A stretch of DNA of 64,000 bases from Bifidobacteriaceae bacterium (GTDB taxonomy: Bacteria; Actinomycetota; Actinomycetes; Actinomycetales; WQXJ01): NCBI GenBank assembly GCA_031281585.1, contig JAITFE010000143.1, positions 1 to 64,000 on the forward strand, given 5' to 3'. Made by a program: the position numbers and the translations under genes. The notes under the pieces were generated by a model. That model was given only the letters and a program-made list of their open reading frames with translations, was not told where the DNA came from and did no database searches. This document shows positions 29,113 to 60,908 of the stretch, piece after piece; within the stretch, counting starts at the first letter, position 1; each line of letters opens with the position of its first letter.

Positions 29113-29286
29113 GTCGCCCCCTTTGAAATCGCATTCGCTTTGCTCAGGCGAAGCCCTGGTCAGGGTGCGAGCTGTCTTCGCAGGGGCTGGGCGCGCGCCT
29201 TTCGACACGATGCGCACAGCCGCTGCGGCCACCGACACGGTCCCCCGACGTCAGTAATTCTACCCGCCAAAGCCGGGGACGGTGCC

Positions 29287-36999: not shown

Positions 37000-38220
37000 C
37001 TACAGCGCGGCACCCGTTGTGAGCTGGAAGATCGGCAAATACAGCGCGATCAAGATGCTGCCGACGATCGCACCCACAACCGCGATCAGGACCGGCTCAA
37101 TGATTGAGGTGATCGAGGCCGTGGCGGCCGTGACCTCTTCGTCGTAGAACTCGGCCACCTTGTCGAGCATCTGGTCCAGAGCGCCAGCCTCCTCGCCAAC
37201 CGCGACCATGTGGGCGATCATGGCCCCGAAGACCGGTTCGGTGGCGATCGCCTTCCCGAGCCCGATCCCGTTCATGACCTGAACCTTGACCCGCTCCACC
37301 GCTTCGGTCACCACGACGTTGCCGGCGGTCTCCCCGACGATTTCCAACGTCTGGACGATCGGCACGCCGACAGCGCTCATGGTGGCGATGGACCGCGACA
37401 GCCGGGCAAGGGCAACTTTCAGCAGCAAGCCGCCAACGATCGGAGTCTTCAGTTTGATCGGGTCGAGCTTCATCCGAACCGACAGGTCGTTCTTGTGTCG
37501 GTTCCACCACCAGACAAAGAAGATGATTCCAGCCAGCAGCGGGATGCCCGCGATCTTCAAGAACTCCGAGAGCTTGACCAGGATCAGGGTCGGCAGCGGC
37601 AACTCCTTGCCCACGCCCTCAAAAATCCCCTGGAAGACGGGCACGATGAACAACAACATGATCACCACGATGATCGCGGCGAAGACCAGCACCACTGCCG
37701 GATAGACCATTGCCGAAGTGACCGCCCTGCGCAGCCGCAATTCGGACTCCATCTGCTCCGCCACCGACAGCAACACGGTGTCGAGGAAGCCGCCGGCCTC
37801 GCCGGCCTTGATCATGGCAATTGTCACAGGCGAGAACACCCGCGGGTGCTTGGCCATGGCCTCGCCGAGCGACGAGCCGGTCTCCACGTCGCCGGCGACT
37901 TCGCGCAGCACCGCGGTCAACGCCGGAGACCCCGCCTGCTCAATGATGGCGTTTAGGGAGTTGAACAGCGACAGGCCAGCGTTGACCATGGTGGCCAGCT
38001 GCCGCATGGCGACGGCCACGTCTTTGGGCTTCGCCCGGTCGCCGCCCAGTTTGATCTCCATGTTGAGGCCGCTCTTGGAAACCTCATCGATGGCGATCGG
38101 CGTCAGGCCGTTCTCCCGCAGGTGGCGCGCAACCGTCTGCTGGTCGGGTCCGTCGATCTTGCCGGAACGGGTCGAGCCGTCGGCTATGACGGTGTACTCA
38201 AAGGTCTTGACTCCGGCCAT
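37000..38220 (-). CDS. pilC: Type IV pilus inner-membrane platform protein PilC
   Basis: Polytopic platform protein on which the PilB and PilT motors act. It has 406 residues with two GspF/PilC repeats, each containing a soluble helical bundle and ending in membrane segments (AMVYPAVVLVFAAIIVVIML near 165-185; ITSIIEPVLIAVVGAIVGSI near 370-390). The motif MIKAGEAGGFLDTVL and its second-repeat counterpart MVAVGEEAGALDQML mark the family. It is the last pilus gene, six bases after pilT. Confidence 0.96.
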   Translation of the reverse strand: MAGVKTFEYTVIADGSTRSGKIDGPDQQTVARHLRENGLTPIAIDEVSKSGLNMEIKLGGDRAKPKDVAVAMRQLATMVNAGLSLFNSLNAIIEQAGSPALTAVLREVAGDVETGSSLGEAMAKHPRVFSPVTIAMIKAGEAGGFLDTVLLSVAEQMESELRLRRAVTSAMVYPAVVLVFAAIIVVIMLLFIVPVFQGIFEGVGKELPLPTLILVKLSEFLKIAGIPLLAGIIFFVWWWNRHKNDLSVRMKLDPIKLKTPIVGGLLLKVALARLSRSIATMSAVGVPIVQTLEIVGETAGNVVVTEAVERVKVQVMNGIGLGKAIATEPVFGAMIAHMVAVGEEAGALDQMLDKVAEFYDEEVTAATASITSIIEPVLIAVVGAIVGSILIALYLPIFQLTTGAAL

Positions 38221-38226
38221 GGGAGG

Positions 38227-39369
38227 TCACATCCTTCCAAATGGACTATTCAGTCCGGCAGCACCCTGCGGAACGCGAGTGGTGCGGCCGAGGAGGCGGG
38301 CGAACTCTTCGGGCGAGCGGGCCGTTTCCAGTCCCTCCTCGAAGGTGATGTCGCCTTGGCGGACCAGGTCCGCCAGCGACTGGTCGAGGGTGTGCATGCC
38401 CTCGTCTTTGCCCGAGTGCAGGGCAGAGTAGATCTGGTGCAGTTTGTTCTCGCGGATCATGGCCCGGATCGCCGGAGTCGCGCGCAAGAGTTCGGTGGCC
38501 ACCACCCGCCCGCGGCCGTCGGCGCGGCGGCACAGCGTCTGCGACAGCACACCTTGGATGGTGATGGCCAACTGGGCGCGAATCTGATCCTGCTGGAACG
38601 AGTCGAACTGGTCGACCATCCGGTTGATCGATTGGGCCACACCCTGGGTGTGCAGCGTGGCGAACACCAGGTGGCCGGTCTCAGCAGCACGCAGCGCGAT
38701 CTCCATGGTCTCCTTGTCCCGCATCTCGCCCACCAGGATGATGTCGGGGTCTTGCCTCAGAGCGTGCTTCAAGGCCTCGGAGAAGGAGAGCGTGTCCACC
38801 CCCACTTCGCGCTGCGCCACCAGGCAGCGGTTGGAGGTGTGTTGGAACTCGATCGGGTCCTCGATCGTCAAAATGTGACCCGAACGGGTGCGGTTGGCCA
38901 GGTCGATGATGGCTGCCAGGGTGGTGGACTTGCCAGAGCCGGTCGGCCCGCAAACCAGTACCAAGCCGCGCGGCAGGCCGGAGAAGGTCTTGACCACACC
39001 AGGGATGCGCAGTTCTTCCAGGGGAAGGATTTTGTCCGGGATGACCCGGAAAGCGGCCGAGATGGAACCGCGGTCCCAGAACAGGTTGCAACGGAACATG
39101 CGCCCTGAGGGCACCTGGTAGGAGTAGTCCAGCTCAAGATCGTGTTCGAACCGCTCTTGCTGGTTCCGGTTGATCATCCCCATCAACTGCTCGTAAAGTG
39201 CGTCCTCACCCGGGGCCGTGTAGCCCGGCAGCGGTGTGAGGTTGCCAGACTGGCGGATGACGGGCGGCAACAGCGCCGTCAGGTGCAAGTCGGAGGCACC
39301 CAAGGCGGCTGCCTCTTCAAGCGCTTGAACCAGGTCCAGTCCCGTTACGGCGGGATACGCTTCAGTCAT
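38227..39369 (-). CDS. pilT: Type IV pilus retraction ATPase PilT
   Basis: Hexameric motor that disassembles the pilus and powers retraction. The 380 residues contain Walker A GPTGSGKST at about 142-150, the Asp box TIEDPIEF, Walker B DPDIILVGEMRD and the His box GHLVFATLHTQ. The PilT-type C-terminal region is present (LLRATPAIRAMIRENKLHQI, similar to the AIRNLIRE motif needed for retraction). Three bases separate it from pilB. A retraction motor implies dynamic pili (twitching, DNA uptake or adhesion). Confidence 0.95.
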   Translation of the reverse strand: MTEAYPAVTGLDLVQALEEAAALGASDLHLTALLPPVIRQSGNLTPLPGYTAPGEDALYEQLMGMINRNQQERFEHDLELDYSYQVPSGRMFRCNLFWDRGSISAAFRVIPDKILPLEELRIPGVVKTFSGLPRGLVLVCGPTGSGKSTTLAAIIDLANRTRSGHILTIEDPIEFQHTSNRCLVAQREVGVDTLSFSEALKHALRQDPDIILVGEMRDKETMEIALRAAETGHLVFATLHTQGVAQSINRMVDQFDSFQQDQIRAQLAITIQGVLSQTLCRRADGRGRVVATELLRATPAIRAMIRENKLHQIYSALHSGKDEGMHTLDQSLADLVRQGDITFEEGLETARSPEEFARLLGRTTRVPQGAAGLNSPFGRM

Positions 39370-39372
39370 CGC

Positions 39373-41049
39373 TCATGCCACCACCCTCAGTAGTTCCTCC
39401 ACAGAAGTCATGCCTTTGGCCACTTTGGCCCAACCGTCTTGTCGCAGCGAAATCATGCCTTGTTGGGCCGCCAATTCGTTGAGTTCTCGGGTGGACTTGC
39501 GCAGCGCGGTCATGTGTTCCAATTCTTTGGACATGTTCATGATCTCGTGGACCGCCATGCGGCCCTTGTAGCCCGTGTTGGCGCACGCCGAGCAACCAGC
39601 TGGCCGGTAAAGCTGGGTTGGCGGCGGCTCCTTGAAAACCCAGTCCTCCGTGAGCACCTTCCGTTCCGCCTCCGTCACGGCGAAGGGCTGACGGCACCGT
39701 TCGCACAGCCGACGAGCCAGGCGCTGGGCCACCACGCAGTCCAGAGCCGAAGCCACCAAGAACGGCTCAATGCCCATCTCAGTCAACCGTGTGACCGCCG
39801 AAGGGGCGTCATTGGTGTGGAGAGTGGACAGCACCAAGTGGCCGGTCAGTGCGGCCTCGACGGCGATCTTCGCGGTCTCACCGTCACGGATTTCCCCCAC
39901 GAGCACCACATCCGGATCGGCCCGCAAGATCGAGCGCAACGCCGAGGCAAAAGTCAGACCGGCCTTCGGGTTGACTTGGATCTGGTTGATGCCGGACATC
40001 CTGTATTCGACTGGGTCCTCAATCGTGATGATGTTGACCTCCGGACGGGAGATCTCTCGAATGGCGGCGTACAGGGTGGTTGACTTGCCGGAACCCGTCG
40101 GGCCGGTGGCGAGAATCATGCCGTAGGGCTTGGTATACGAGGCCTTGAACTTGTTGAACGAATCATCTGAAAACGACAGCTTGCGCAAATCGACTTCAAC
40201 GGCCGAAGTGTTCAGAATACGCATGACGACTTTCTCGCCCCAGACAGTCGGCAACGTTGCGACGCGAAGGTCCACGTTGCCGCCGTCGACCTCGATCGAA
40301 ATACGGCCGTCTTGGGGCTTGCGCCGCTCGGCGATGTCGATGTTCGACATGATCTTGATGCGGGAAATGACTTGCGATTGGATCGACTTGGGGGCGTTCT
40401 GCATTTCATGAAGAACGCCGTCGATCCGGTAGCGAACTCTCAGGTCGTGCTCCTCCGGTTCCAGGTGGATGTCCGAGCAGCCGTCGTGAATCGCTTGGGA
40501 AATCAGCAGATGCACCCACCGGACGACAGGGGAATCCTCCGCGACGACTTCGGTCACCGAGACGAGGTCTCTTTGCTCCTCGCGCGCGACCGAGTCGATG
40601 GTCTGCCCGATCGAGTCGATCTCCGAATCTGAACGGACCCACCGCTTGATGGCCCGCTCCAGGGCGCTGCGCTGCGCGACCACCGGTGCGACAGCGGAGC
40701 CAAGATAAGACCGCACGTCGTCAAGCGCGACAATATTGCCCGGCTCAGCCATGGCCAGCAGCACCGTGTCGCCCTCGCGGGCCACTGGCAAGAGCAAGTG
40801 GCGGCGGCAAATCGCCGCGGGGACCGAGACGGCCACACGGGCGTCAACCGGATAAACGTCAATGTCGATAAAGCGCAGCCCCGCCGCCTCGGCGAGCACC
40901 GGGATGAGGTCCTCTTCCGTCAGCACGCCGGATGAGACCAGCGCCTGCCCCAGGGTCACACCCTCCAAGCTCTGTTGACGAACTGCCTGGTCAAGCTGGT
41001 CCTTGGAGACCAAGCCCCGGGACAGCAGGGTTTGCTCTAGTGCGCTCAT
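39373..41049 (-). CDS. pilB: Type IV pilus extension ATPase PilB
   Basis: Motor for pilus assembly, 558 residues. An N-terminal GspE/MshEN-like domain (about 1-150; the start SALEQTLLSRGLVSKDQL is typical) is followed by the ATPase core with Walker A GPTGSGKST, IEDPVEYRM, Walker B DPDVVLVGEIRD and GHLVLSTLHTND. A four-cysteine zinc element follows (CERC and CSAC). MshEN-type N-termini can bind cyclic di-GMP; whether this one does is open. Its ATG overlaps the stop of the PAS gene (ATGA), tying pilB translation to the sensor module. Confidence 0.96.
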   Translation of the reverse strand: MSALEQTLLSRGLVSKDQLDQAVRQQSLEGVTLGQALVSSGVLTEEDLIPVLAEAAGLRFIDIDVYPVDARVAVSVPAAICRRHLLLPVAREGDTVLLAMAEPGNIVALDDVRSYLGSAVAPVVAQRSALERAIKRWVRSDSEIDSIGQTIDSVAREEQRDLVSVTEVVAEDSPVVRWVHLLISQAIHDGCSDIHLEPEEHDLRVRYRIDGVLHEMQNAPKSIQSQVISRIKIMSNIDIAERRKPQDGRISIEVDGGNVDLRVATLPTVWGEKVVMRILNTSAVEVDLRKLSFSDDSFNKFKASYTKPYGMILATGPTGSGKSTTLYAAIREISRPEVNIITIEDPVEYRMSGINQIQVNPKAGLTFASALRSILRADPDVVLVGEIRDGETAKIAVEAALTGHLVLSTLHTNDAPSAVTRLTEMGIEPFLVASALDCVVAQRLARRLCERCRQPFAVTEAERKVLTEDWVFKEPPPTQLYRPAGCSACANTGYKGRMAVHEIMNMSKELEHMTALRKSTRELNELAAQQGMISLRQDGWAKVAKGMTSVEELLRVVA

Positions 41050-42467
41050 CTGACACCCCTTGGCATGACCAGGCCCATCGAATTGAAGACGGCCTGAGTG
41101 TGGTCGTAGTTGTCGCTGATCAAGTGCCGGGCGGTCGCGTTGATGCGGCCCAGGATCTCCTCCAGGGGGGCCCGGTCAAACGGCCGGGCCTCATCCACGC
41201 AGGCCTTGGCGAGGGAGCGCAACGAACTGAGCTCCTCGTGGGACTTGTGGAGGCGCTCGTCAATCGGCCCGACCAACGGCCCAAGCTGGGCCGACACGCC
41301 GTACTTGGGCACTTGGATGCGCCAAGCGGACAGGAACTTTTGGAACTGGCCCAGGCTGGCGCCGGCGGATTCGACGTGGCGGCCCACGTCGGTCAAGACC
41401 TGCTGGGCGCCTTCCAGGCCCGACGAAACCGCCTCCACGTCATCGGCCAACGCGTAGCACAGCAGCGGCACGTACAGGAAACCTTCGGGCGGCGCGAAAC
41501 CGTCCAGGTTCTCCAGGGCGAAGTTGATGACCATGTCGTTGTGCAACTGGGCCAGGGCGATCCGGAAGCGCAACTCCATCACGCCCAGCCGCACCTGTGA
41601 GAGCCGCTCCGGAAGCGGGGTCACCACATGCTCGGCGCCAGCCCCGACCTGGGTCATGGCGTTGGCGGTCGAGACCAGGATCGGCGCGTGCCCTGCCACC
41701 CGCTGGGAGGCGTCCAAAGCGACTTGGGTGACTTGCGCCAAAGTCGCCACCGTCCCGCCAAGCTGTTGCGATCCGCCCTGCAGCGCCTCAGCCAGGCGTT
41801 GCAGCGAATCCAAGCGGCCAAGCAGTTCGCCGATCAACTCGTCCATCGCGACCGCGTTGTTGAGAATGTCGGCGATGTCGCCGTGCGCCTCGGGACGGTA
41901 GGTCCGCCGGGCGGACAACGACACCCGCGTCTGGGTTTCGGCCGGCAAAGCGGTGTACATGAACTCGTCATAGGACGGGAAGCCCGCGTCCGCCAGCATT
42001 CCCGCCAAAGCGACCAGACCCGCCGTGGCCGTCTGCGACCGGTTGGCGCCGTTCCGCTTGGCCTCCTCCTCGATCGGCAGAGCCTGGCCGTACAGCGAGA
42101 GCGCCGCGTTCCAAAGCGGCTCGAAGCGGGGGGAGGACCGAACAGACAAGAACCCGCTGCCCATAGGCGTGACCGTCGCAAACACCTGGTAGTCGAAACC
42201 GTCCTTGGCCAGGTTCTTGACGTATGCGGCGAACGGTTTGCCGCCCAGCAACGTGTCCCACATCAGCTTGAAGGCGCCACCCGGCATCAACGGGTTGCGG
42301 ATTAAGTTGTGCGGTGCTCCCATCAGTTCGTTTCGCGGGAAGGCCGAGAGCCGGGCGAACACCGAGTTGGCCGCCGTGATGACGCCCTTTCGGTCGGTGC
42401 AGGAGAAGAACAACTCGTCAACTCCAACACGCCGTTCTTGCCCGATCCGGGCTTTGCGATCAAGCAT
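41046..42467 (-). CDS. PAS-domain sensor protein coupled to pilB
   Basis: A 473-residue protein with a PAS domain at ~16-125 (DELFFSCTDRKGVITAANSV, ELMGAPHNLIRNPLMPGGAF, YVKNLAKDGFDYQVFATVTP), similar to the sensing domain of Aer. A long, mainly helical part follows (LHNDMVINFALENLDGF, FLSAWRIQVPKYGVSAQLGP). No transmembrane segment and no clear chemoreceptor signalling tip are seen. The ATG overlaps the GTPase gene by eight bases and its stop overlaps pilB. A likely role is to bring a redox, light or metabolite signal to the GTPase module or directly to PilB. Its paralogue is at 27679-29112. Confidence 0.82.
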   Translation of the reverse strand: MLDRKARIGQERRVGVDELFFSCTDRKGVITAANSVFARLSAFPRNELMGAPHNLIRNPLMPGGAFKLMWDTLLGGKPFAAYVKNLAKDGFDYQVFATVTPMGSGFLSVRSSPRFEPLWNAALSLYGQALPIEEEAKRNGANRSQTATAGLVALAGMLADAGFPSYDEFMYTALPAETQTRVSLSARRTYRPEAHGDIADILNNAVAMDELIGELLGRLDSLQRLAEALQGGSQQLGGTVATLAQVTQVALDASQRVAGHAPILVSTANAMTQVGAGAEHVVTPLPERLSQVRLGVMELRFRIALAQLHNDMVINFALENLDGFAPPEGFLYVPLLCYALADDVEAVSSGLEGAQQVLTDVGRHVESAGASLGQFQKFLSAWRIQVPKYGVSAQLGPLVGPIDERLHKSHEELSSLRSLAKACVDEARPFDRAPLEEILGRINATARHLISDNYDHTQAVFNSMGLVMPRGVR

Positions 42468-43065
42468 TGCGCAACCTATCCATTGCCACGCGCACCACTG
42501 CGACCAGCGCCTGCTTCGCGGCTTCGCGGGAACGCGCATCCGAATACATGACCGGGATATCGGGGCCCACGGCCAACGCGTCGCGCACATCCTCGAGCGT
42601 GTGACGGGCAATCCCGTCGAAGCAGTTGACCACCACGACGAATGGGATCCCGCGGGATTCGAAGTAGTCCACGGCCGTGAAGCCCTGGTCCAACCGGTCG
42701 GTGTCCACCAGCACGACCGCGCCGATGGCGCCGCGGACCAAGTCATCCCACATGAAGAGGAAGCGCTCCTGGCCCGGCGTGCCGAACAGATACAGCCAAA
42801 GGGAATCGCCCAGCGCGATGCGGCCAAAGTCCATGGCCACCGTGGTGGTTTCCTTCTGGGCCGCCCGCCGTCCCGCGTCATCCACTCCCAGGGAGTGTTC
42901 CGTCATGTCGGCTTCGGTGTTCAACGGCTCAATATCCGAAACCGCGCCAATGAACGTGGTCTTGCCAACGGCGAAGCCGCCGGCCACCACGATTTTGACG
43001 ACTGTCGGAGGCTTGGGCCGCGTCACGGTAGCGCCTTGGCTCGGCTCATAGTTTGGATATTGCAT
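42460..43065 (-). CDS. Small GTPase of the conservon type (CvnD-like)
   Basis: A 201-residue Ras-like GTPase of the actinobacterial Cvn 'ATP/GTP-binding' family. Walker A GGFAVGKTT is at 29-37, a Thr-rich switch I region (KETTTVAMDFGRI) follows, the switch II FGTPGQERFLFMW has Gln, and the base-recognition element is NCFDG, typical of this family instead of NKxD. It overlaps the DUF742 gene by 20 bases and the PAS gene by eight. In Streptomyces such GTPases act with the Roadblock and kinase-like partners of the conservon. Here the neighbours are pilus motors. Confidence 0.92.
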   Translation of the reverse strand: MQYPNYEPSQGATVTRPKPPTVVKIVVAGGFAVGKTTFIGAVSDIEPLNTEADMTEHSLGVDDAGRRAAQKETTTVAMDFGRIALGDSLWLYLFGTPGQERFLFMWDDLVRGAIGAVVLVDTDRLDQGFTAVDYFESRGIPFVVVVNCFDGIARHTLEDVRDALAVGPDIPVMYSDARSREAAKQALVAVVRVAMDRLRNA

Positions 43066-43708
43066 TTAGAACACTCTCCAGTAGCTCCAGGGTTTGTTCG
43101 CGTGAGACGGGCCCGCCCGAACCCACGCCGCCGCCGCCGCCCGCCATGGTGTCATGCACCACCAGGACGCCAGCCTCAGCTAGATCGGAAACAAGCACCT
43201 TGACAACACCCACCGGCAGTTTCAGGTGCGCGGAAACTTCGGCCACGGTCAAGTACGTGGTGGCGATCTGCCGCACGATGGCGGCTTCCTCGGGCGACAG
43301 GGTTTTGCCCGTGTCCGCCAGCCACTGTTCGTTGGCGACTTCGAGAATTGACTCAAGGCGGGTGCTGGTGCTGCCCTTGGTCCGCCCGCCGGTCACCACG
43401 AAGGGCCTGACCGAGGCGACGTCTTCGACGGACAGCGACACCTTCGCCTCGTCTTCGATCCGGCGCCGGGGCCGCTTGCGCGGCGAGGCGGGGACCGACG
43501 GGCGCGGGGCACGCGCCTCGGCCGGGTGGCTGGCCGCCGGCGCGGATCGCGGGTGGACGGGGGCCGTCCGGGCCACGGGGGCGCCGGCCGGTGGGATGTC
43601 GGTCTTGGCTGGGGAAGCGAGCGATTCGAACGTTCGCTCAGCCAAGCCGCTCGAGTCGGCGTCCGTCCGTCTGGGGACGGGGCGCCGCTGCGCGGGAGAT
43701 GGCATCAT
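43046..43708 (-). CDS. DUF742 protein (CvnC-like)
   Basis: About 220 residues. The C-terminal ~115 are DUF742 (VRPFVVTGGRTKGSTSTRLE, TVAEVSAHLKLPVGVVKVLV with winged-helix character, DLAEAGVLVVHD). The N-terminal ~100 are Pro/Ala/Arg-rich and ought to be unstructured. In conservons this protein is the third component, of unclear biochemical role. The start is one of two adjacent ATG codons overlapping the cvnB-like stop. Frames further upstream lie within the Roadblock gene. Confidence 0.88.
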   Translation of the reverse strand: MMPSPAQRRPVPRRTDADSSGLAERTFESLASPAKTDIPPAGAPVARTAPVHPRSAPAASHPAEARAPRPSVPASPRKRPRRRIEDEAKVSLSVEDVASVRPFVVTGGRTKGSTSTRLESILEVANEQWLADTGKTLSPEEAAIVRQIATTYLTVAEVSAHLKLPVGVVKVLVSDLAEAGVLVVHDTMAGGGGGVGSGGPVSREQTLELLESVLNAISKL

Positions 43709-44160
43709 CGGCCACCCCGCACGGTGCCGGTTGTCGGCAGGGCGTCCCGCATTTCGGCGATTAGCTGCGGCGTCAAGAAGGACTCGGCGCGGCCCACCAG
43801 AGTCGCCATCTCGTAGCCAACCAGGCCCACGTCGGAATCCGGTTCGCACAGCACCGCCAACACCGATCCATAGGAGATCGACATCAGCATGACGAAGCCT
43901 TCCTCGTATTCGATGACCGATTGGCGGTCCCGACCTATGCCAAGTTCGCGTCCCGCGCCGCGGGCCAACGACGACATGCCGGAGCAGATCGCCGCCATAA
44001 TGTCGCCGACGGTCCTGTCGGCGCCGCCGGACATGGTCATCAGCAAGCCGTCGGCGCTGACCACAACGCCGAGCCGGGCTCCCGGGGTCGAGCGCACAAA
44101 CGAGTCAAGGAGCCAGGTCAGATCCTGCCTATTCTCCCCGGTCTGGTAGTTGGTCGTCAT
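43705..44160 (-). CDS. Roadblock/LC7-domain protein (CvnB-like)
   Basis: A 151-residue Roadblock/LC7 protein (LTWLLDSFVRSTPGARLGVV, VSADGLLMTMSGG, IEYEEGFVMLMSISYGSVLA). Proteins of this fold regulate small GTPases, for example MglB with MglA. It is preceded by AAGGAGA and followed without a gap by the DUF742 gene. Within the conservon it is expected to contact the GTPase or the kinase-like protein. Confidence 0.92.
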   Translation of the reverse strand: MTTNYQTGENRQDLTWLLDSFVRSTPGARLGVVVSADGLLMTMSGGADRTVGDIMAAICSGMSSLARGAGRELGIGRDRQSVIEYEEGFVMLMSISYGSVLAVLCEPDSDVGLVGYEMATLVGRAESFLTPQLIAEMRDALPTTGTVRGGR

Positions 44161-44230
44161 CTGAGTTCTCCTTGGATGGACATGGGAATAAGTTCAGTCT
44201 TTGATTCGTGATGATGGATCATGGCGGACC

Positions 44231-46810: not shown

Positions 46811-46888
46811 CAGGTGCTCATTTTCCCTTCCATACGTCGTTCACAGGCGTTGTGGACGAATCTGTAGTCGGATCAGGTCGTTCCCGTC

Positions 46889-48829
46889 CTAAGGCCCTTC
46901 GCATAGACCTTCCAAGCACTCCTCAAGGCTGAAGCGCTTCAGCCATTTGCCCGAGGCACTCTTCTGGTTCAGGTCCATGCAGTAGTAGTCGACGCCGTTG
47001 TACTTGTTCTTGGGCAACGTGCCGGTGTCCTTAAACATGACCTGGTCGTCACTGGTCCATTTCGTGTAGCCAGGGGACTTCTGGTCACTGTACTGGCAGT
47101 CCTCGTACTGCGGCTCGCTGAACCAGACCCAGCGTGTGCGGGTCTCATTGAAGAAGCCTGGACGTCCCCAGTTCCCGCCGTGATGTCCCAGCGATCCGTG
47201 CTCGTGCCAGCCGCGGCCCCATTGCTTGCCGTAGGTGTCCCACCAAATCACGAAGCCTTGACCGGTCTGGAAATCCTTGACGTTCCGGGCCACAACGATG
47301 ATGGCGCCCGGATCGGGACTCTTGTAGGAGGAGACGATCTCAAACACCTCTGAGCCTCTGCCTGTGGAACCCTCGATCTTGCTTGGATAGCCTTCATAGC
47401 TTCGCACCGGAGCGCCCCAGCCGTACAGCGTGCCGTCGTCAGCCAAAGCGGTCACGGCGGTGAACGAACAGGAGAACTGCACAATGTTGGGCGGGGTGCC
47501 ATCCCATTGGACAAACCCTGGCGAGCGGTAGCAGTGATCTCTGGCAGCTGTGGTCGTCTCGGCGCAGCGCCGCCCGACGGCTCCCCAGTCATTGACTGTG
47601 CCGTCTTCGATTTTTCCGTCGTTCCGGCCCCATGTCAGCATCCGGCCGGTGGACAAGAGCGCCGCCCCAAAACCGATTCCCGAGTGGACTTGGACGATGT
47701 ATTCGCTGGGGCTGTTCTCCCGGAACCATGGCTCCAACGCCACCGATTTCACCGCGATCTGGCCTTCGCCCTCGGGGTAGTCGTTGTAGTTGACGCCGGG
47801 CCTGCCCGAATACTCGGCTGGGTGGTCGCCTTCCGCGCGCTCCCATGGTGATCCCAGGGTTCCGCTCGCGTTGCCGCCGAAGTACCAAACCTGACCGTTT
47901 TTCAGCATCACCCAATACGTCTGGTAGCCGCCTTCAAGTTGGTCCGGCTGGTTGCCCTCTACCGTCACATCGAAGTCCGCCGGGAACCGCACCTGCACCG
48001 CTCCCCACCTGTTCTTGCCGTCGGTCAGGTCGGTGAGGTCTCCCGTGCCGACGCCTCCGTAGTTGTAGCCGCCCCAGGAGTAAATCAGGCCACTCTTGGT
48101 GACAGCAGCGCCGCTCATTTCCGTACTCGACAGGAGCTCCACAGGATCATTCTGACCCAGCAACGGCTTGCCGCAGTTCTCCTTGATGACGGCCTTGCCC
48201 TTCGCGTCCTTGCCCCAGCAGCTGTCATCCCAAGCCGCGCCGATCCGCAGTCTCTGCGGAGGCCAGGAGGCGCCGGTGGCCTTGCCGTACTTCGCGTTAC
48301 CCGTGTCCGAGTTCCTGACGGCGTTCGAACCACCGGTGCCGTCGCGATTCGCGTATGAACCCCAGCCCCAAACGTAGCCGGCCGTGTCGACGGCGTTGAA
48401 GTTGTAGATGCCTCCGGTCACTTCCTTGATGGCCTTGGAGGGCAAACCCTCGACCGTCGTGGGAGCTCGGTTGTCCGGCTCGCCCCAATCTGTGGACAGG
48501 CAGGACGCGTCGTCGCGCGAGCCTTTGACGCCCAGCGCTCCGCACACGCCCCAACCCCACAGGTACAACTCGCCGTCCAGGATGGTGACGCCCGCCTGCA
48601 GCGTGCGGCGGTCCTTCCGCGACTCACCGGTGACAGCAGTTGTCTTCGGCAGCACGGCCGGCTGGATAACCGGCGTCAACGCCTCCGGTGCCCGTGCGGC
48701 TTGGGCACCGGTTTCGGCGCCGCCGATAGTCGTCACCACCAAGGCACCCACCGCCGTCGTGGTGGCAATCACGGTCCAGATTCTTTGCGCCCGCAGGGCT
48801 CGGCCGGTGCGGACCTTGTTGTTAGCCAT
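46889..48829 (-). CDS. Secreted RCC1-like beta-propeller protein in the pilus operon
   Basis: A 646-residue exported protein with a basic N-terminus and a hydrophobic segment at ~18-40, likely a signal peptide or anchor. It then has at least six repeats with the RCC1 feel (LYLWGWGVCGALG, YVWGWGSYANRDG, IYSWGGYNYGGVGTGD, VWYFGGNASGTLGS, MLTWGRNDGK, LYGWGAPV). Many Cys and aromatic residues follow in the C-terminal ~150 residues (e.g. YEDCQYSD, YYCMDLNQ). The ATG follows GGGAGGGAG and overlaps the pilO-like gene by eight bases, so it belongs to the pilus operon. It may be a pilus-associated adhesin or tip component. I know of no characterised pilus protein of this type. Confidence 0.75.
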   Translation of the reverse strand: MANNKVRTGRALRAQRIWTVIATTTAVGALVVTTIGGAETGAQAARAPEALTPVIQPAVLPKTTAVTGESRKDRRTLQAGVTILDGELYLWGWGVCGALGVKGSRDDASCLSTDWGEPDNRAPTTVEGLPSKAIKEVTGGIYNFNAVDTAGYVWGWGSYANRDGTGGSNAVRNSDTGNAKYGKATGASWPPQRLRIGAAWDDSCWGKDAKGKAVIKENCGKPLLGQNDPVELLSSTEMSGAAVTKSGLIYSWGGYNYGGVGTGDLTDLTDGKNRWGAVQVRFPADFDVTVEGNQPDQLEGGYQTYWVMLKNGQVWYFGGNASGTLGSPWERAEGDHPAEYSGRPGVNYNDYPEGEGQIAVKSVALEPWFRENSPSEYIVQVHSGIGFGAALLSTGRMLTWGRNDGKIEDGTVNDWGAVGRRCAETTTAARDHCYRSPGFVQWDGTPPNIVQFSCSFTAVTALADDGTLYGWGAPVRSYEGYPSKIEGSTGRGSEVFEIVSSYKSPDPGAIIVVARNVKDFQTGQGFVIWWDTYGKQWGRGWHEHGSLGHHGGNWGRPGFFNETRTRWVWFSEPQYEDCQYSDQKSPGYTKWTSDDQVMFKDTGTLPKNKYNGVDYYCMDLNQKSASGKWLKRFSLEECLEGLCEGP

Positions 48830-49496
48830 TGCTCCCTCCCTCAGTCGAAGAGTCGGGTATTTTGTCTGCCGGTACAAGGGCGTAGGTGTACCCAATGATC
48901 GTATACTCGGCGACGTTGGTCAGCCCGTTGGCGTCCGCCGTCTCCGAATCGCCTGTCATCTGCACATCTGTGACCGAAAATAGACGGCCCTCGTCTGCCT
49001 GCAGCATCGCGAGGAACTTCTGCGTCTGTTCCAGCACACCCTCAATCTCAATTGTGAACTTGTATTGGTAGAGGTTTGCCGGGGGTTGGGGCACTACCGG
49101 CGCTTCTTGGCTGTCTGGTCCCTTGGGCAACGGAGCGGCCACGGTTACCGCAACCGGCATGTCGCTCGCCACAGACTTGACCGTGGCCCCCGATTCCTGT
49201 GCGAGGTTCCACAGGTCGTCAGTGAACTCGGCGAGCTCAAGATCGGTTGGGAACTGGCTCCTTTTCGCCTCAAGCTCTGCCTTCTTCTCGTCAAGGTGTT
49301 TAGCGTCTTCGGCCAGCTTGTTGAGTTCGGCCTGTGCCTGCTCGTTTTCAGACTCGGCGTCTTCGGCCTTGGTGATGGCCTCGCTCCGCGCTTCCAACGC
49401 GGGAGCGTAGAGCAGGAAGTACGTGCCCACGGCCAATGCCAGGGCCAGCAGCGCGACTAGCGCCAGTATTGCCGTAGATCGCTGGTTGCCTCTCAT
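48822..49496 (-). CDS. pilO: PilO-like pilus alignment protein
   Basis: A 224-residue bitopic membrane protein with a short cytoplasmic start, a membrane helix (~10-30, ILALVALLALALAVGTYFLL), a coiled coil (~35-80, rich in Glu/Lys/Ala) and a periplasm-facing alpha/beta domain with YKFTIEIEGVLEQTQKFLAM, the ferredoxin-like pattern of PilO. With PilM and PilN it forms the inner-membrane alignment complex. The start ATG overlaps the pilN stop (TGATG). Confidence 0.85.
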   Translation of the reverse strand: MRGNQRSTAILALVALLALALAVGTYFLLYAPALEARSEAITKAEDAESENEQAQAELNKLAEDAKHLDEKKAELEAKRSQFPTDLELAEFTDDLWNLAQESGATVKSVASDMPVAVTVAAPLPKGPDSQEAPVVPQPPANLYQYKFTIEIEGVLEQTQKFLAMLQADEGRLFSVTDVQMTGDSETADANGLTNVAEYTIIGYTYALVPADKIPDSSTEGGSNG

Positions 49497-50260
49497 CAGT
49501 CCGTCTTCCCTTCCTCCGTTGTGGTCCCGGCTCCCTGAGCTTGGGCGGTCAGTAGCCACTCTTGGAAATCCTTCGGGAACAGTTCGTTGCCGACCAAACC
49601 CACCAGGTTGATTTGGGCCGAGCACGTCGCCGTCCAGACCTCGCCTCTCGGAGTCTCTCGCTTGGTGGCGGCGCTGTAGGTGCCGAATTCCAGGCCGGGA
49701 ATAGAGTTGAAACCGCGCACCCAGGCTGACACGCCAGGCATGTCCGGCACATCCAACATGATGGTGGCCGAGCCGATGGCGGCGGGCGCCAAGACATTTC
49801 CTGAACTGCTCATTGTCTTGCCAGCCGACATGCCCTGGAGCGTAATGCTGGAAACGACGGAGCCATCCGGCACGTTGTCGAACATGGCGTAAATCAATTC
49901 GGGCCAACGGATCTCGTATGACACAGCCACCATAAGGGCGTCCCCGGTCGCTTTCAACTCTTCGTTGATCTTGATGACCTCCGCGTACTGCTCCTTCTCC
50001 TCGGCCAAGCGCTGGGCCTCCGATTCGGCTTTGGCGAGCCGCGAGTCAGCGGCGCCTTTCCAGATGCTGACGCCAACATATCCAGCGACCAAGACCAAGA
50101 CGACCAGCGCCAGAGCGACTAGCGCCTTGACCTGAAGGGCCCGCCCGGCTTGGCGGTTGGCCACATAGGCCGGCAGAAGATTGACCGCCGGGACCCGTGG
50201 CCGTGTCGCCATGGCGCTGCCCAAGCCGACGCCGGGCGCGGTGGGTGGGTTCTTGCTCAT
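49496..50260 (-). CDS. pilN: PilN-like pilus alignment protein
   Basis: A 254-residue bitopic protein. The cytoplasmic N-terminus carries VPAVNLLPAYVANRQAGR, matching the INLLP motif by which PilN binds PilM. A membrane helix (~45-66) and a coiled coil (~70-105) follow, then a PilN-type domain (WPELIYAMFDNVPDGSVVSS). The start overlaps pilM (ATGA) and the stop overlaps pilO. Confidence 0.88.
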   Translation of the reverse strand: MSKNPPTAPGVGLGSAMATRPRVPAVNLLPAYVANRQAGRALQVKALVALALVVLVLVAGYVGVSIWKGAADSRLAKAESEAQRLAEEKEQYAEVIKINEELKATGDALMVAVSYEIRWPELIYAMFDNVPDGSVVSSITLQGMSAGKTMSSSGNVLAPAAIGSATIMLDVPDMPGVSAWVRGFNSIPGLEFGTYSAATKRETPRGEVWTATCSAQINLVGLVGNELFPKDFQEWLLTAQAQGAGTTTEEGKTD

Positions 50261-51303
50261 GCCGCCCCTCCCATCGCCAGGCCCACCGCCACGGGTAGCG
50301 ACATCCGCTGTTCAGGCGTCATCGCCTTGGCAGAACGTTCGACCGTGAAGTTCGAGTCCAGAGCCGAGAAGGAAGCCGGCAGCCTGAGCGCCGTTGAAAT
50401 GTACTGGCCCAGTCCGTTCAACATGCCTCCCCGACCCGAGATGACCACGTGCTCGACCGCGTGTCCAGAAGACTGGCTGTAGAAGGAGAACGTCCTGGCA
50501 ACCTGTTCCACCAACGCCTGGCACTTCTCGGCGATCACGGCAAAGGCCCCGTGGGCCTGCTCGTTGCCTTCGCCTGGGTTCATCAAAGCCACTTCAATCT
50601 TCAATCGTTCCGCGTGCGGTTCTGGGATCGCTATGGTCCGCGCGATCTGGTCAGTAATCAGTCTGCCACCTGTCGGCAAAATCCGCATTATCGCGGGCTC
50701 GCCATTTTGGGCCACAACCACTGTTGTCATATCCGCGCCGACGTCCACCAGGCCGACAATGGAGTGTTGGAACTGTCCCCGCGCCAAAGCACGCACCAAA
50801 GCGAAGGCCGCCAGATCGACCCGAACGGGCCGCAGCCCCGCCGCCAAGACGGCGTCCACGTTGTGCTCGATCGTCTCGTTAGGGGCCGCCACCAGCAGGC
50901 CGCTGACCTGGCCCTCCGCCTCTACGAGTGGATAAAAGTCGAGTTGGCATTCATCGACCGGCACCATGATCAGGTCTTGAACCGTGAACGGCAGGGCAAG
51001 ACGGAGTGATGCAAGCGGAGCCGAGGGCAGCGTCGCATCGCGCACCACAACTCTTTGCCCGCCCAGCCCGATGACCACATCTTTGCTCGCGAAACGCTGC
51101 GCGTTCCAAAGGTTCTTGAGGGCGGCGGACACGTCAGCGACCCGAACAACCTCACCGTCCCGGACGGCATCGGGCACCAAATCGACCTCGGCGTAGCGTT
51201 GGATCGCCGCAGAGCCGAGCGGATTGCCGGTATCGAAAGCTAACTCGACGGCCCGCAACTGGGTGTCGCCAATGTCCAGCCCAACGACTTGGGTTCTCGC
51301 CAT
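50257..51303 (-). CDS. pilM: PilM, actin-like pilus protein
   Basis: Cytoplasmic actin-fold protein of 348 residues that binds the PilN tail and links the alignment complex to the motors. The ATP-binding phosphate-1 loop VGLDIGDTQLRAVEL is at the N-terminus, the phosphate-2 segment VGLVDVGADMTTVVV at ~185-200, and the adenosine region VISGRGGMLNGL at ~300. It follows the prepilin peptidase gene by 37 bases. Confidence 0.93.
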   Translation of the reverse strand: MARTQVVGLDIGDTQLRAVELAFDTGNPLGSAAIQRYAEVDLVPDAVRDGEVVRVADVSAALKNLWNAQRFASKDVVIGLGGQRVVVRDATLPSAPLASLRLALPFTVQDLIMVPVDECQLDFYPLVEAEGQVSGLLVAAPNETIEHNVDAVLAAGLRPVRVDLAAFALVRALARGQFQHSIVGLVDVGADMTTVVVAQNGEPAIMRILPTGGRLITDQIARTIAIPEPHAERLKIEVALMNPGEGNEQAHGAFAVIAEKCQALVEQVARTFSFYSQSSGHAVEHVVISGRGGMLNGLGQYISTALRLPASFSALDSNFTVERSAKAMTPEQRMSLPVAVGLAMGGAA

Positions 51304-51340
51304 CGCATCGCCTTTCTAGTAATCCGACCTGTCTAAATCT

Positions 51341-52138
51341 TCAAACCTGCATCAATTGACGATACAGGTCCCACACGGGTCCACCGACCGCGCAGCCCAA
51401 TGCCGCTCCAGCGCACATCCAAGGGCCGAACGGAATAGCGGTGCGCCGCCCTCCGTGAGTCTTGATCATCACGCCAATTCCCCACACCGCGCCAAGCAAG
51501 AACGCGCCGAACGCCCCAACCGCCAGCGGGCCCCAGCCTTGGTAGGCCAAAACCAGGCCGATCAGTCCCGCCAGCTTGACATCGCCCCATCCCATGCCTT
51601 GGGGCTTTACGAAGTGCACAACACCGTAAACCGCCATTAGACCGAGGCCGCCGATCCCAGCCCGGAGCAAGGCCGGCCAATCGCCTGACAGCCAACTGCC
51701 GAAGGCGAGCAGAACCGCCAGCACCGGATAAGACGGCTTCACTATGGCATCAGGGAGCCGCCCAGTTCTAGCGTCGATCGCTGTCAGCGCAACCGCGATC
51801 GCGGCGGCATACAGGTAGGCCGGAACGGCGGCGAATGGCTGAACAAGCAACGCCACCAACGCAAACAGCGCCGCCGTCGAGGCCTCCACCAATGGGTATA
51901 GCTTCGAGATCGGCTCGCCGCACGAACGGCAGCGTCCCCGCAGGATCAGCCAGGACAACAGCGGAATGTTGTCTCTGGCCGTCACCTGTTGACCGCATTT
52001 TGGGCAGGCCGAACGCGGCCACAGGCTGGCCCCCTCTGGCACACGAGTGATGACGACCGTCAAGAAGGAGCCGATGACCAGTCCCAGCAGACCACCCGCG
52101 ACCCCTTTGGCGATTGCGTCGAGCGTTTCAAGGGTCAC
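51341..52138 (-). CDS. pilD: Prepilin peptidase / N-methyltransferase PilD
   Basis: Membrane aspartyl protease (A24 family) that cleaves prepilins after Gly and methylates the new N-terminus. Residues ~45-73 hold the cytosolic zinc cysteines (CPKC, CRSC). The catalytic aspartates are D122 in TAIDARTG and D186 in GMGWGDVKLAG (the GxGD motif). Eight or so hydrophobic segments are present. The GTG start directly follows the TAA of the upstream minor pilin gene. Its substrates are encoded next to it: two major and three minor prepilins. Confidence 0.95.
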   Translation of the reverse strand: MTLETLDAIAKGVAGGLLGLVIGSFLTVVITRVPEGASLWPRSACPKCGQQVTARDNIPLLSWLILRGRCRSCGEPISKLYPLVEASTAALFALVALLVQPFAAVPAYLYAAAIAVALTAIDARTGRLPDAIVKPSYPVLAVLLAFGSWLSGDWPALLRAGIGGLGLMAVYGVVHFVKPQGMGWGDVKLAGLIGLVLAYQGWGPLAVGAFGAFLLGAVWGIGVMIKTHGGRRTAIPFGPWMCAGAALGCAVGGPVWDLYRQLMQV

Positions 52139-54073
52139 TTACGGGGCCTTCTCAACGAACGCGCTGGGAATCGCCTTCTCCTGGTAGGCGATCACCCATG
52201 TGCCGCTCTGCAAGGGCTCAAACAGAAGCGGTCGTTTCTCATTCAGCTTCTCGTTGTACTTGTACTGCTTGGCGTAGCCGTTGAGCGGGGTGGTCGAGGC
52301 CCCCGCAGTCTCTTCCGCCATCACCCCGCGGAAGTTTTGCGCAATCGATCCAACCACGGTGAGCGTGCCGAGATATCCGCCGTATTTCCAGTTCTGCAGA
52401 CGGAAGCTGCCAGTCCCGGCGATGATGGCGGCTTCGATCCGCAAATCGCCTGTCGGCCAGCCCGAGGCGCGCTCTGGTGCCGAAGGCACCTGCCAAATGA
52501 ACTTGTTGGGATCGCCAGGGTATGGGGAGGCGGCGTACTTCTCCAGCACGGGATTGTAGATTTGCACCGATTCGGATGCCATCACACCGATCAAGTCCTC
52601 GGCGTCATTGACAGTGGTGAGGTCCCCCGTGATGACGACTGACGAATCCGCCCACATTGTGATGGTGCCCTTCACTTCCCCTTCCACCCAGAGATTGCCT
52701 TGGTTCGCGTACATGTCCTCCATCTTCATTGCCAACTCGATCTCATAGGTTGAGTTCGCCGCAGGTGCCCACAAGTCGTCGTAGGCCTCGACGTAGCTGC
52801 CCAGCGGCAGCTCCTGTCCGCTTGGACCGCCGATCGCGCCGTGTTCGATTTTCTTTGACAGGTCAGGGTGGGCCGCCGCGTCTAGATCACGCACGTAAAT
52901 CAAACTGCCGTCGGGGATTGGCAACGTGACCCCCGCGTCAAGCTCCGCGGCGGTGCCACACCGACCCGTCGTTGCCGCATCGGGGTTGTCCGTGTACCTG
53001 GACCACACCGTCATTGTGCCGTCGTTCTTGAAGATGATCCTAGTGGGACCGTCGTAAGCGCAACCGCGGTTGGCGATCTCGTCGAGCACAGCCGGATCAG
53101 ACTTGGGCGGAAGTTCGGGCAAGAACTCTCTCTCCGCGATACTGGGAGGCACGTGAAAATCAGCGCTGCCATTGACGCAAGTATTCCAAGTGGATGGCAC
53201 GCTCGCATCGGCTACGCAACGCGTGTCGGATGTGGTGAAGTCGCTCAGGAAATGCGCCCCGTTCGACTTGATCGTGTCATTCGAGTGAACCGGGCCGTCC
53301 AGGTAGTCCCACTCTCTAAAACTCGGCTCCAGGCAATCCCGCGGGTAGCCCTCGTCGGTTCGATCCTGCCTGGCCGGTCTGGTGCCCGCGTCAACCTGGT
53401 ACTTGTAGCCCAGCTCGGCAAGAGTGGTGGCCGACGGGTACCCGGCACCGCACACATTCATGTTGGCGCCACGGGTGGGATAGGCCGTGTAATCTGACGG
53501 GTCAACGAGTTCGTAGTCCGACAGATAGAGGTACTGTTTGGAACTGGCACGCTCGATACGCGCCTTGACCGAACGCACCACGCCCTGGGACCTCCCCGTC
53601 GACAGCACCTCAGCGCTCATCGGAATGGCGCTATAGTCAAGCACAGTGTAGTGGAATTCTTGCGACGCCTGTGCGCTGGAGTCGTCGTACTTGTAGAATC
53701 TCGCGTATTCCTCCGTCCAGCCGCAATCAGTCGCGAAGTGGTCCTGCTCGGCGGATGCTCCCGTGTTCTTTCCACCCACGGCCGGGTTCCTGCAGTAGCC
53801 GGTATCCAGGGTTTTCGTCGCCGCCACTTCGTTCAGGTAATCAGGGTTCTCACGCAAACGGGCGAGCAAGTCGTTCACTCCGGACTGTGCCGCAGCCAGC
53901 GCCAGATCGTTGTCCTGCTCGAAGCGCGACGCCTTCGTCGAGGCCGCCAGATAAGCCAACGAGCCCAACACGATCACGGTCAGGATGGTGAAGGAGGCCA
54001 GCACGGCCACCATGGTGATGCCTGCGTCCCTGCCGCGGCGGTGCCGCGCGCGGCGGGTCAAATAGCTTCTCAT
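52139..54073 (-). CDS. PilX-like minor pilin with a very large ectodomain
   Basis: A 644-residue protein whose N-terminus resembles PilX-type minor pilins: basic residues (TRRARHRRGRDAG), then ITMVAVLASFTILTVIVLGS as the pilin-like helix, with an amide/acidic residue missing at position +5. The ~600-residue exterior is rich in Asp, Tyr and Cys (about eight Cys), with no domain I can name. The ATG at 54073 shares a base with the preceding stop and has GGAAG at a proper distance. An ATG five codons earlier is possible. It is much larger than typical PilX (about 150-200 residues), suggesting a tip-located binding domain. Confidence 0.78.
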   Translation of the reverse strand: MRSYLTRRARHRRGRDAGITMVAVLASFTILTVIVLGSLAYLAASTKASRFEQDNDLALAAAQSGVNDLLARLRENPDYLNEVAATKTLDTGYCRNPAVGGKNTGASAEQDHFATDCGWTEEYARFYKYDDSSAQASQEFHYTVLDYSAIPMSAEVLSTGRSQGVVRSVKARIERASSKQYLYLSDYELVDPSDYTAYPTRGANMNVCGAGYPSATTLAELGYKYQVDAGTRPARQDRTDEGYPRDCLEPSFREWDYLDGPVHSNDTIKSNGAHFLSDFTTSDTRCVADASVPSTWNTCVNGSADFHVPPSIAEREFLPELPPKSDPAVLDEIANRGCAYDGPTRIIFKNDGTMTVWSRYTDNPDAATTGRCGTAAELDAGVTLPIPDGSLIYVRDLDAAAHPDLSKKIEHGAIGGPSGQELPLGSYVEAYDDLWAPAANSTYEIELAMKMEDMYANQGNLWVEGEVKGTITMWADSSVVITGDLTTVNDAEDLIGVMASESVQIYNPVLEKYAASPYPGDPNKFIWQVPSAPERASGWPTGDLRIEAAIIAGTGSFRLQNWKYGGYLGTLTVVGSIAQNFRGVMAEETAGASTTPLNGYAKQYKYNEKLNEKRPLLFEPLQSGTWVIAYQEKAIPSAFVEKAP

Positions 54074-54816
54074 CAGAGTTTCTTCCATTCTTCGACCGTG
54101 AATCGTTTGAAAACTGTCGCCTGAATGCTCTTGTCGCTGCCTTTCCCGCTGTCCGGCCCGATCACCGTGATCATCATTTCGACTGCCTCAATATTGCCGA
54201 TTTCCGAAGCCGAGACGCTGGGCGCGCCTGGCTTGAGCACCCCGCCGTCTTTCACGAAGTAGGTAAAGATGGGGTCCGTGTCCTTGACCCCGCTCGCCAC
54301 CACCAAGTCTTCGAACAAGTTGTTGGGGCAATCGGGGGCACCCTTGGTGCACAAGACCGAGGAGTTGTCAGCCAGGATCTTCGGAGACTGAACGCAGCGA
54401 TGAAGCACCCCTGGATCATCGCCGGGCGAGCCCCAACAAGTCTGGCCCAACACCACCCGCACGGAGCTGACACGCTTGCCCTCGGTGTCTCCAGTGACCG
54501 GCAGAGCCGCTGTGAACTTCATTTCCTGCGGCTCGGCTACGGCGAAGACCGTGTCACCCGCCCCGGCCGACCGGGGCAACGCCGCGTAGCTCAGCGCGTC
54601 GCTCAGCCAGATGCTGGTCTGCCTGATGCCGTCCACGCGCGACTGGCGAATCAGGTTCTTCGCGTCGTGTTTCATCATTGAGATCATGACCATGCCAACC
54701 AGACCCAGCACCATTGTTCCGATCAGGAGCACCGTGAGCAGTTCGGTCAAGGACATGCCCCTGTCGTCACCCGGCCGCCGAAGCCTGGCCGCCAGCCGCA
54801 AGGCCAAGCGCTTCAC
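54073..54816 (-). CDS. Minor prepilin, PilW-like
   Basis: A 247-residue prepilin with a 20-residue basic leader ending in DDRG, followed by MSLTELLTVLLIG with Glu at +5, the signature processed by PilD. The globular part has a Cys pair (QTCWGSP and HRCVQSP, plus CTKGAPDC). The GTG start overlaps the previous gene (GTGA). It is likely part of the minor-pilin priming complex together with its two neighbours. Confidence 0.85.
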   Translation of the reverse strand: MKRLALRLAARLRRPGDDRGMSLTELLTVLLIGTMVLGLVGMVMISMMKHDAKNLIRQSRVDGIRQTSIWLSDALSYAALPRSAGAGDTVFAVAEPQEMKFTAALPVTGDTEGKRVSSVRVVLGQTCWGSPGDDPGVLHRCVQSPKILADNSSVLCTKGAPDCPNNLFEDLVVASGVKDTDPIFTYFVKDGGVLKPGAPSVSASEIGNIEAVEMMITVIGPDSGKGSDKSIQATVFKRFTVEEWKKL

Positions 54817-55907
54817 AAGCTCACCTCCTTGCTCGGGTTGGGGCCGGGCACCAGGGTGACGGTCGCCTTGGATACTCCGCCGATGTCAATCGAATAGTCG
54901 CCCGGCGCCAAGCCGGTGAAGGTGGCCACGCCACCCACCAGGCTCGCTTGCCGCGCGGTGCCACCGAGCGCGAACAGTGGACGGGCTTGCACGAATTGGA
55001 CCGATTCTGGCGCGTTGGGGACAACCACTGTCAGGCTCGCCGCCTCGTTGTAGTCCTCAAACTTGACCGACGTGTTGGCACCGGGCTGCACGGGTGCCGG
55101 CTGACTCGGGTTAACCTGGCCATTTGGGTAGACGAACGAGCTTCCCCCTTGGTATCCCAACAGGGTGACCGTGTAGTCCGAGCCGGTCGGCGACGCGGGC
55201 ACCACCGTGAACACCGCGCAGCCGGCGGCATTCGTTATCTGCGGTCCGGTCAACACCTGCGGTCCCGTGACCTCCACCTGTACGCCCTGGATGGGACCGG
55301 CGCCACTGTGGTCTTCGCCCTTTACGAAGACGCTGATTTGGCTTTGCCCGGGGCTCAACGCCGACGGGGCGTTCCTGTGGGGCGGGAAGACCTTCGACGC
55401 GACATGCGGTCGCGTGCCCGCGCTGGCACCCTCCCAGCTAACGGTGACGGTCACCAGCGTGCCCTTGGCGGTCTGCGTGGCCGAACCACTCGGGTCACAA
55501 GGCGAATTCACCTCGGTGATATATGTGGACGCCGTGCGCACTACTTTGTAGCGCTGACCGTCCACACCAAAGGCGTACACCGCGTGGCCTGTGTCCATCG
55601 ACGCCGGCAAATTCGGGTTCACCGCCGGGTTAACGGCCGGATCCAGGAGCTGATTGGCACCGTTGGGTGAGCCGGTGATCCGTTCCGCCGCATAGTCCAG
55701 CTCTCTTTGGGCCAGCCCAGCGGCGGTGATGCGGGCCCTGTTGTCGGCGCTGGCGGCGGTGCCGCTGGTAATGGCCGTCATCACGGCAATGGAGAAAACC
55801 GCGATAAGAATGACCGACACCATCACTTCCACCAAGGTGGCACCGTCATCCTTGCGCGGAGAGCCGACGGGCGTCCTTACCGGTCGGCGGGGGGCGGCTT
55901 GTGGCAC
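54813..55907 (-). CDS. Minor prepilin, PilV-like, with an Ig/Cna-B-like C-terminal part
   Basis: About 364 residues. The leader ends in KDDG, then ATLVEVMVSVILIAVFSIAV with Glu at +5. After a pilin globular domain to ~190 come ~170 residues that look like beta-sandwich modules (GVQVEVTGPQVLTGP, AAGCAVFTVVPASPTGSDYT, ATFTGLAPGDYSIDIGG), typical of carboxypeptidase-regulatory/Cna-B folds. I chose the GTG at 55907 with AAAGGGG ahead. A GTG eight codons earlier has no binding site. A promoter (55967-55996) precedes it, so this gene opens the main pilus-conservon operon. Confidence 0.83.
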   Translation of the reverse strand: MPQAAPRRPVRTPVGSPRKDDGATLVEVMVSVILIAVFSIAVMTAITSGTAASADNRARITAAGLAQRELDYAAERITGSPNGANQLLDPAVNPAVNPNLPASMDTGHAVYAFGVDGQRYKVVRTASTYITEVNSPCDPSGSATQTAKGTLVTVTVSWEGASAGTRPHVASKVFPPHRNAPSALSPGQSQISVFVKGEDHSGAGPIQGVQVEVTGPQVLTGPQITNAAGCAVFTVVPASPTGSDYTVTLLGYQGGSSFVYPNGQVNPSQPAPVQPGANTSVKFEDYNEAASLTVVVPNAPESVQFVQARPLFALGGTARQASLVGGVATFTGLAPGDYSIDIGGVSKATVTLVPGPNPSKEVSL

Positions 55908-55966
55908 CTTCAGCCCCTTTCTGATTGGCACCGTTTTCTAAGTCTACGTGCGGGCGAACTCAATCA

Positions 55967-57917: not shown

Positions 57918-58104
57918 TGTCCCGCCTCCCGTCCGTTCTTGTCCTGTTCGGCGGAGTTGGAACCCTCCGCCAGTTCGCCTGCATCTTCCACCGCCGACAC
58001 GAGCCAACCCGATGCAATTCGGCGGGACGGGACAAGATGACTTGCTTCGAGAAGACTGGGCCGGAACGTGTTTGGTCAACTCCGCGCCAGCGCTGCTGGT
58101 CCTG

Positions 58105-60178: not shown

Positions 60179-60193
60179 CGACCTGCCCCCGGC

Positions 60194-60817: not shown

Positions 60818-60908
60818 GCCAAACACATCCCTTCGTATGCTGCTAGGACGCCAGCGGCGCCACACGCCCGGCCCGACGAACCCCGGACCAAAACAAACCC
60901 ACGCGCGC

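Follow-up and report, generated by a model that had tools for sequence, protein, structure and literature searches.

The signal path and the outputs of conservons are described as poorly understood. In Myxococcus, MglA, a relative of the conservon GTPase CvnD, reportedly controls type IV pili. According to PMC13343842, autophosphorylation of CvnA8 of Streptomyces coelicolor requires H183, an accessory gene (cvnE or cvnF) comes after cvnD in systems whose CvnA has no sensor, and CvnF8 binds CvnA8 and stimulates it. In the aerotaxis receptor Aer, the FAD contacts include H53, R57, M69, W70, N85, and R115, and a Gly at position 28 is favourable (PMC9668731). Here, we describe a conservon-derived gene module that lies, together with a gene for an Aer-type PAS protein, inside a type IVa pilus operon. 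A full-text search of open-access papers treating both conservons and type IV pili returned no description of such an operon in the parts of those papers that were accessible.

The operon is located in a 64-kb stretch of DNA, which as a whole is referred to as the window. It runs along the minus strand from the prepilins at ~58 kb to pilC at 37.0 kb, with rpoB and rpoC beyond pilC. The gene order is prepilins, PilD, PilM, PilN, PilO, RCC1-repeat protein, CvnA, CvnB, CvnC, CvnD, PAS protein, PilB, PilT, and PilC, as follows:

57399..57923 (start approximate), minus strand: type IV prepilin (N_methyl, 1.5e-8)
56142..56663 (start approximate), minus strand: type IV prepilin (N_methyl, 3.3e-7)
52139..55931, minus strand: three minor pilin-like genes (54813-55931, 54073-54816, and 52139-54088) with N-terminal hydrophobic pilin motifs
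51341..52138, minus strand: PilD prepilin peptidase (A24_N_bact, 1.8e-32; Peptidase_A24, 8.5e-12)
50257..51303, minus strand: PilM (PilM_2, 1.3e-39)
49496..50260, minus strand: PilN by position, between PilM and PilO, with one N-terminal transmembrane (TM) segment and no Pfam PilN match
48822..49496, minus strand: PilO, by position (PilO, 0.0058, below the cut-off)
46889..48829, minus strand: secreted RCC1-repeat protein (RCC1-like, 1.2e-26; N-terminal hydrophobic segment)
44231..46810, minus strand: CvnA-like probable pseudo-kinase (one TM helix, LDNL for LDHL in the DHp, HATPase, Pro-rich tail with LPxR)
43705..44160, minus strand: CvnB, Roadblock/LC7, predicted GAP (Robl_LC7, 2.7e-16)
43046..43708, minus strand: CvnC, DUF742, predicted GEF (DUF742, 3.5e-23)
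42460..43065, minus strand: CvnD, Ras-like GTPase of the conservon (MglA Group 2) family (domain searches, tree)
41046..42467, minus strand: Aer-type PAS protein with a helical C-terminal part, in the CvnE/CvnF position (Aer PAS 8dik, 1.4e-18)
39373..41049, minus strand: PilB extension ATPase (T2SSE, 1.6e-140; MshEN, 2.4e-19)
38227..39369, minus strand: PilT retraction ATPase (T2SSE, 2e-45)
37000..38220, minus strand: PilC platform protein (T2SSF, 5e-57)

Domain searches identified the type IVa pilus components PilB, PilT, PilC, PilD, PilM, and prepilins; the minor pilin-like genes gave weak PilV-like and PilW-like matches, and their order is retained across the genus of the window (g1). The same searches agree with an earlier, sequence-only reading of this DNA, which had placed CvnA-like, Roadblock, DUF742, and GTPase genes on one strand within the pilus operon, and the overlaps of 4, 20, 8, and 4 bases that it reported are exact. 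Its gene list omitted the PAS gene and the RCC1-repeat gene. The PAS gene (42467-41046) lies between the GTPase gene and pilB, and its two ends form the 8- and 4-base overlaps. CvnA overlaps neither of its neighbours, being separated from them by gaps of ~78 and ~70 bases. The RCC1-repeat gene (46889-48829) is fast-evolving; its product is possibly a pilus-associated beta-propeller, located at the tip or on the surface. Upstream of the prepilins, the 58841-62462 region encodes exported proteins, of which one contains a WxL-interacting-protein-like domain and another contains invasin/Ig-like domains. Since ComEC is encoded in the genome, DNA uptake is one possible role of the pilus.

The presence of four syntenic genes, cvnA-cvnB-cvnC-cvnD, gives the module the makeup of a conservon. 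CvnD is a P-loop GTPase with G1 (GGFAVGKT), G3 (GTPGQ), and G4 (NCFD) motifs, while CvnB and CvnC would act as GAP and GEF, respectively, by analogy with their mycobacterial homologues. The genome contains a single Roadblock gene and a single DUF742 gene. In a tree of 85 CvnDs, built from conservon CvnDs only and without a non-conservon MglA outgroup, g1 CvnDs grouped on a long stem with an Actinomycetales conservon clade (support 99-100) that includes Cellulomonas, Oerskovia, Kineococcus, Demequinaceae, and others. Conservons of this clade are ordinary stand-alone operons, and flanks of up to 10 kb per side contained no convincing pilus gene; four CvnAs of these conservons, when scanned, all contained HAMP, with a recognisable NIT sensor domain in two. 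The g1 genes are thus true conservon relatives that came to be placed beside pilB.

A GTPase switch acting on the pilus, as the sequence-only reading had proposed, would be the most economical reading of this arrangement, but nothing in the sequence favours the polarity that it had also suggested over activity. MglA reportedly activates polar pili via SgmX, which we count in favour of a switch of the Myxococcus kind, where CvnD and CvnB would place the pilus machine at the pole and have no redox role. The homology of CvnD and CvnB to MglA and MglB, stated in PMC4316618, points in the same direction. However, the operon shows no polarity partner, and the surrounding CvnA, CvnC, and PAS genes form the context of a conservon. 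We therefore consider a purely polar role improbable.

For the "CvnA-like kinase" of the sequence-only reading, the family holds, but the kinase activity is doubtful. The protein has a HATPase_c match (1.9e-11), and in g1 the LPxR motif, found in all 101 ordinary stretches, occurs 46 to 49 residues past the core. The DHp motif LDHL has its His in 93 of 93 ordinary CvnA rows; no other His is invariant across the aligned core, so this residue most likely corresponds to H183 in CvnA8. At this position, the window and five other aligned g1 loci have Asn, whereas the sister genus g4 has Arg. CvnA of g1 retains the ATP-site Asn and Asp and has one TM helix, with neither a sensor nor a HAMP domain recognisable in domain searches. 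Since the phospho-acceptor His is replaced, g1 CvnA is probably a pseudo-kinase rather than a kinase; with HATPase and LPxR kept, it would be conservon-derived without being a canonical conservon kinase.

The first 115 residues of the operon PAS protein match the PAS domain of Aer in a PDB search (8dik, 1.4e-18). The protein is soluble, with no Pfam match and no TM segment. All of H53, R57, M69, W70, N85, and R115 of Aer, as well as G28, are kept in the window protein, in its paralogue PAS2, and in nine other g1 loci; T27 is replaced by Lys, and H58 and D60 also differ. FAD binding is a good prediction. A structure predicted from a three-sequence alignment had pLDDT below 40 in the PAS part and gave only generic helical-bundle matches. 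PAS2 (27679-29238 of the window) is 57% identical to the operon protein, keeps all FAD contacts, and is encoded right after rpoC. PAS relatives adjoin rpoC in another family too (f3), and the operon copy may be a duplicate of the rpoC-side neighbour. Full-length PAS-plus-helical proteins without a Pfam family are also encoded away from pilus genes in several Actinomycetales families (L012-L031).

Located directly after cvnD and paired with a sensor-less CvnA, the PAS gene occupies the place of cvnE and cvnF, although Pfam searches found neither the GAF domain of CvnF nor the cytochrome P450 domain of CvnE in its product. CheW was not found in the window's genome, which leaves no ordinary chemotaxis route for the protein. 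It is likely the input of the G-protein module. In the main alternative, it would be an effector of CvnD-GTP that in turn acts on the pilus machine, with CvnA receiving its input from elsewhere, for example, from the pilus itself. PMC4316618 provides a precedent: the GTPase MfpB, in its GTP form, binds MfpA, whose gene directly follows a mycobacterial conservon; the position of the PAS gene between cvnD and pilB, overlapping both, would also suit an effector. The retained FAD contacts favour sensing, though a sensor domain could also be part of an effector, and no other sensor is visible in CvnA. On this evidence, an effector role is unlikely, and we retain the reading of the PAS protein as the input.

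To follow the linkage, ten genomes of g1, a genus of uncultured Actinomycetales, were sampled, the window's genome among them. The order CvnA-B-C-D-PAS-PilB is identical in every g1 genome covering the region; on contigs of sufficient length, PilB is followed by PilT, PilC, and rpoB, and CvnA is preceded by PilM, N, O, and RCC1. The 20/8/4-base overlap series recurs in eight of the nine other g1 loci, the ninth not having it intact because its PAS frame is broken, possibly through an assembly error. In one g1 genome, at 2355-3934 of L076 (G112:C466), a frame break that includes an in-frame TGA divides the PAS gene, and the assembly could be in error there. In the G228 assembly (contamination, 7%), the complete module is present twice, in slightly different versions (L074 and L075) on two contigs, probably from two strains. 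The order is kept across g1 although synonymous divergence ranges from about 0.5 to over 2, and its recurrence despite such divergence indicates that the linkage is more than chance. Pairwise dN/dS values in six pairs, at dS of about 0.6 to over 2, were 0.004 to 0.042 for CvnB and 0.007 to 0.051 for CvnD. In each pair, these two genes had the lowest values among the operon genes compared, below those of PilB and PilT. The conservon core in the g1 pilus operon is under very strong purifying selection.

In an rpoB tree, the sister genus g4 lies just outside g1, together with g2 and g3. Three g4 genomes were sampled (loci L082-L084) as far as their contigs extend. PilM-N-O and PilB are retained in their operon, along with remnants of CvnA and PAS, and RCC1 is present in two of the three loci (L082 and L084). 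CvnB, CvnC, and CvnD are absent from the operon and were not found elsewhere in the three genomes. The CvnA remnant has no LPxR and no HATPase detectable in Pfam; in all three loci, it has lost the ATP-site Asn and Asp, and the PAS remnant has lost H53, R57, W70, N85, and R115. In the simplest history, the common ancestor would have had the module in its pilus operon, and g4 would have lost the GTPase genes, with the ATP and FAD sites decaying thereafter. This history represents one event, the direction of which we infer. That the loss of CvnBCD is accompanied by decay of both sites ties the FAD site, the ATP site, and the GTPase into one chain.

The linkage is confined to g1, is decayed in g4, and does not generalise across Actinomycetota. 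The gene order is thus not a peculiarity of one genome, the outcome that would have counted against the sequence-only reading, but its conservation ends at the genus. No conservon-pilus linkage was seen in 80 named loci of the best CvnD matches, except the g1 locus L160, nor was any pilus linkage seen in 20 conservon neighbourhoods. Of 147 PilM-positive genomes from other orders of the phylum, 10 had a DUF742 gene, but in none of the 147 was it near PilM, a count in which fragmented assemblies could hide cases; in three genomes it shared a contig with PilM at a distance of more than 250 kb, and in the rest it was on a different contig. In genus f16/g44, a conservon lies ~22 to 24 kb from PilM; this was not counted as linkage, since the intervening genes, judged by eye, are of housekeeping type and the proximity was taken as incidental. 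Co-occurrence of the CvnD clade with PilM gave a Fisher p of ~5e-6 (22 with both, 5 and 15 with a single one, and 39 with neither). In kinship-corrected pairs, which have little power, the median p was 0.25 to 0.5, and the association was not used as evidence.

One genus and a decayed sister form amount, in effect, to a single recruitment and a single loss. Such a distribution would fit a conservon that landed in the pilus operon by chance, regulates something else, like stand-alone conservons, and stays there by shared descent; the stand-alone state of the same CvnD clade elsewhere and the missing corrected co-occurrence with PilM also fit this explanation. It accounts less well for order and overlaps retained at high synonymous divergence, for the remodelling of CvnA and its neighbourhood (sensor and HAMP absent, His changed to Asn, PAS in the operon), and for the CvnA and PAS remnants that stay in the g4 pilus operon although the GTPase genes are gone. 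Chance relocation is thus rather unlikely.

The explanation that we prefer, holding it to be evenly poised between true and false, is that a redox-responsive conservon was captured by a type IVa pilus operon, with a signal path from FAD-PAS through CvnA, CvnB/CvnC, and CvnD to the pilus. The soluble Aer-type PAS protein would read the redox or energy state of the cell via FAD and act on membrane-anchored, ATP-bound CvnA. Since CvnA would bind ATP but would have lost histidine phosphotransfer, the signal would pass as a conformational change rather than by phosphotransfer. CvnA would then set the balance between CvnB (GAP) and CvnC (GEF) and hence the GTP state of CvnD, and CvnD-GTP would tune pilus assembly or retraction through either the PilB/PilT/PilC motor and platform or the PilM/N/O complex. 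We favour the motor as the probable target, since its genes follow directly with overlapping frames. FAD binding, the direction of signalling, the GAP and GEF roles, and the pilus as target are the steps that we infer. The narrower proposal of redox-responsive movement, in which FAD-PAS feeds a Ras-like GTPase via a pseudo-kinase, with neither His phosphotransfer nor chemotaxis proteins, and the GTPase directly gates a Gram-positive pilus motor, is a tentative one.

From the operon itself, the pilus can be read as the likely output and the FAD redox state as the likely input, which makes both directly testable. Overall, the data suggest that a G protein may tie pilus activity to energy state in these Gram-positives. 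If so, the control of type IV pili by small GTPases, as in Myxococcus and Bdellovibrio, would extend to a Gram-positive lineage, where the pilus-GTPase link looks like an independent recruitment, and a CvnA without phospho-histidine would make kinase chemistry dispensable in at least one G-protein system.

Compared to the Cvn8 and Cvn9 conservons of Streptomyces coelicolor, the g1 module has the same cvnA-B-C-D order and protein families, the LPxR after the CvnA core, and a CvnD of the conservon clade. It differs in being part of a pilus operon, in a CvnA that lacks the sensor, HAMP, and the invariant DHp His, and in an accessory place held by a PAS protein instead of a P450 (CvnE) or GAF (CvnF) protein. 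The PAS protein resembles the CvnF8-type accessory sensor in its position after cvnD and its sensor-less CvnA partner; unlike CvnF8, it is of the Aer rather than the GAF kind and cannot act by stimulating His autophosphorylation. With the Aer receptor of E. coli, it shares a PAS domain with the main FAD contacts, but no TM, HAMP, or chemoreceptor signalling domain was detected in it, and the genome shows no CheW. The Mfp conservon of mycobacteria (MfpB/MfpA) is likewise a single one, and a functional gene immediately follows its cvnD; MfpA, however, acts on DNA gyrase, while in g1 cvnD is followed by the PAS protein and the pilus motor. Finally, in MglA/MglB of Myxococcus xanthus, as in g1, a Ras-like GTPase and a Roadblock protein are linked to type IVa pili, whereas the g1 CvnD belongs to the conservon group and its genes lie inside the pilus operon, together with CvnA, CvnC, and PAS.
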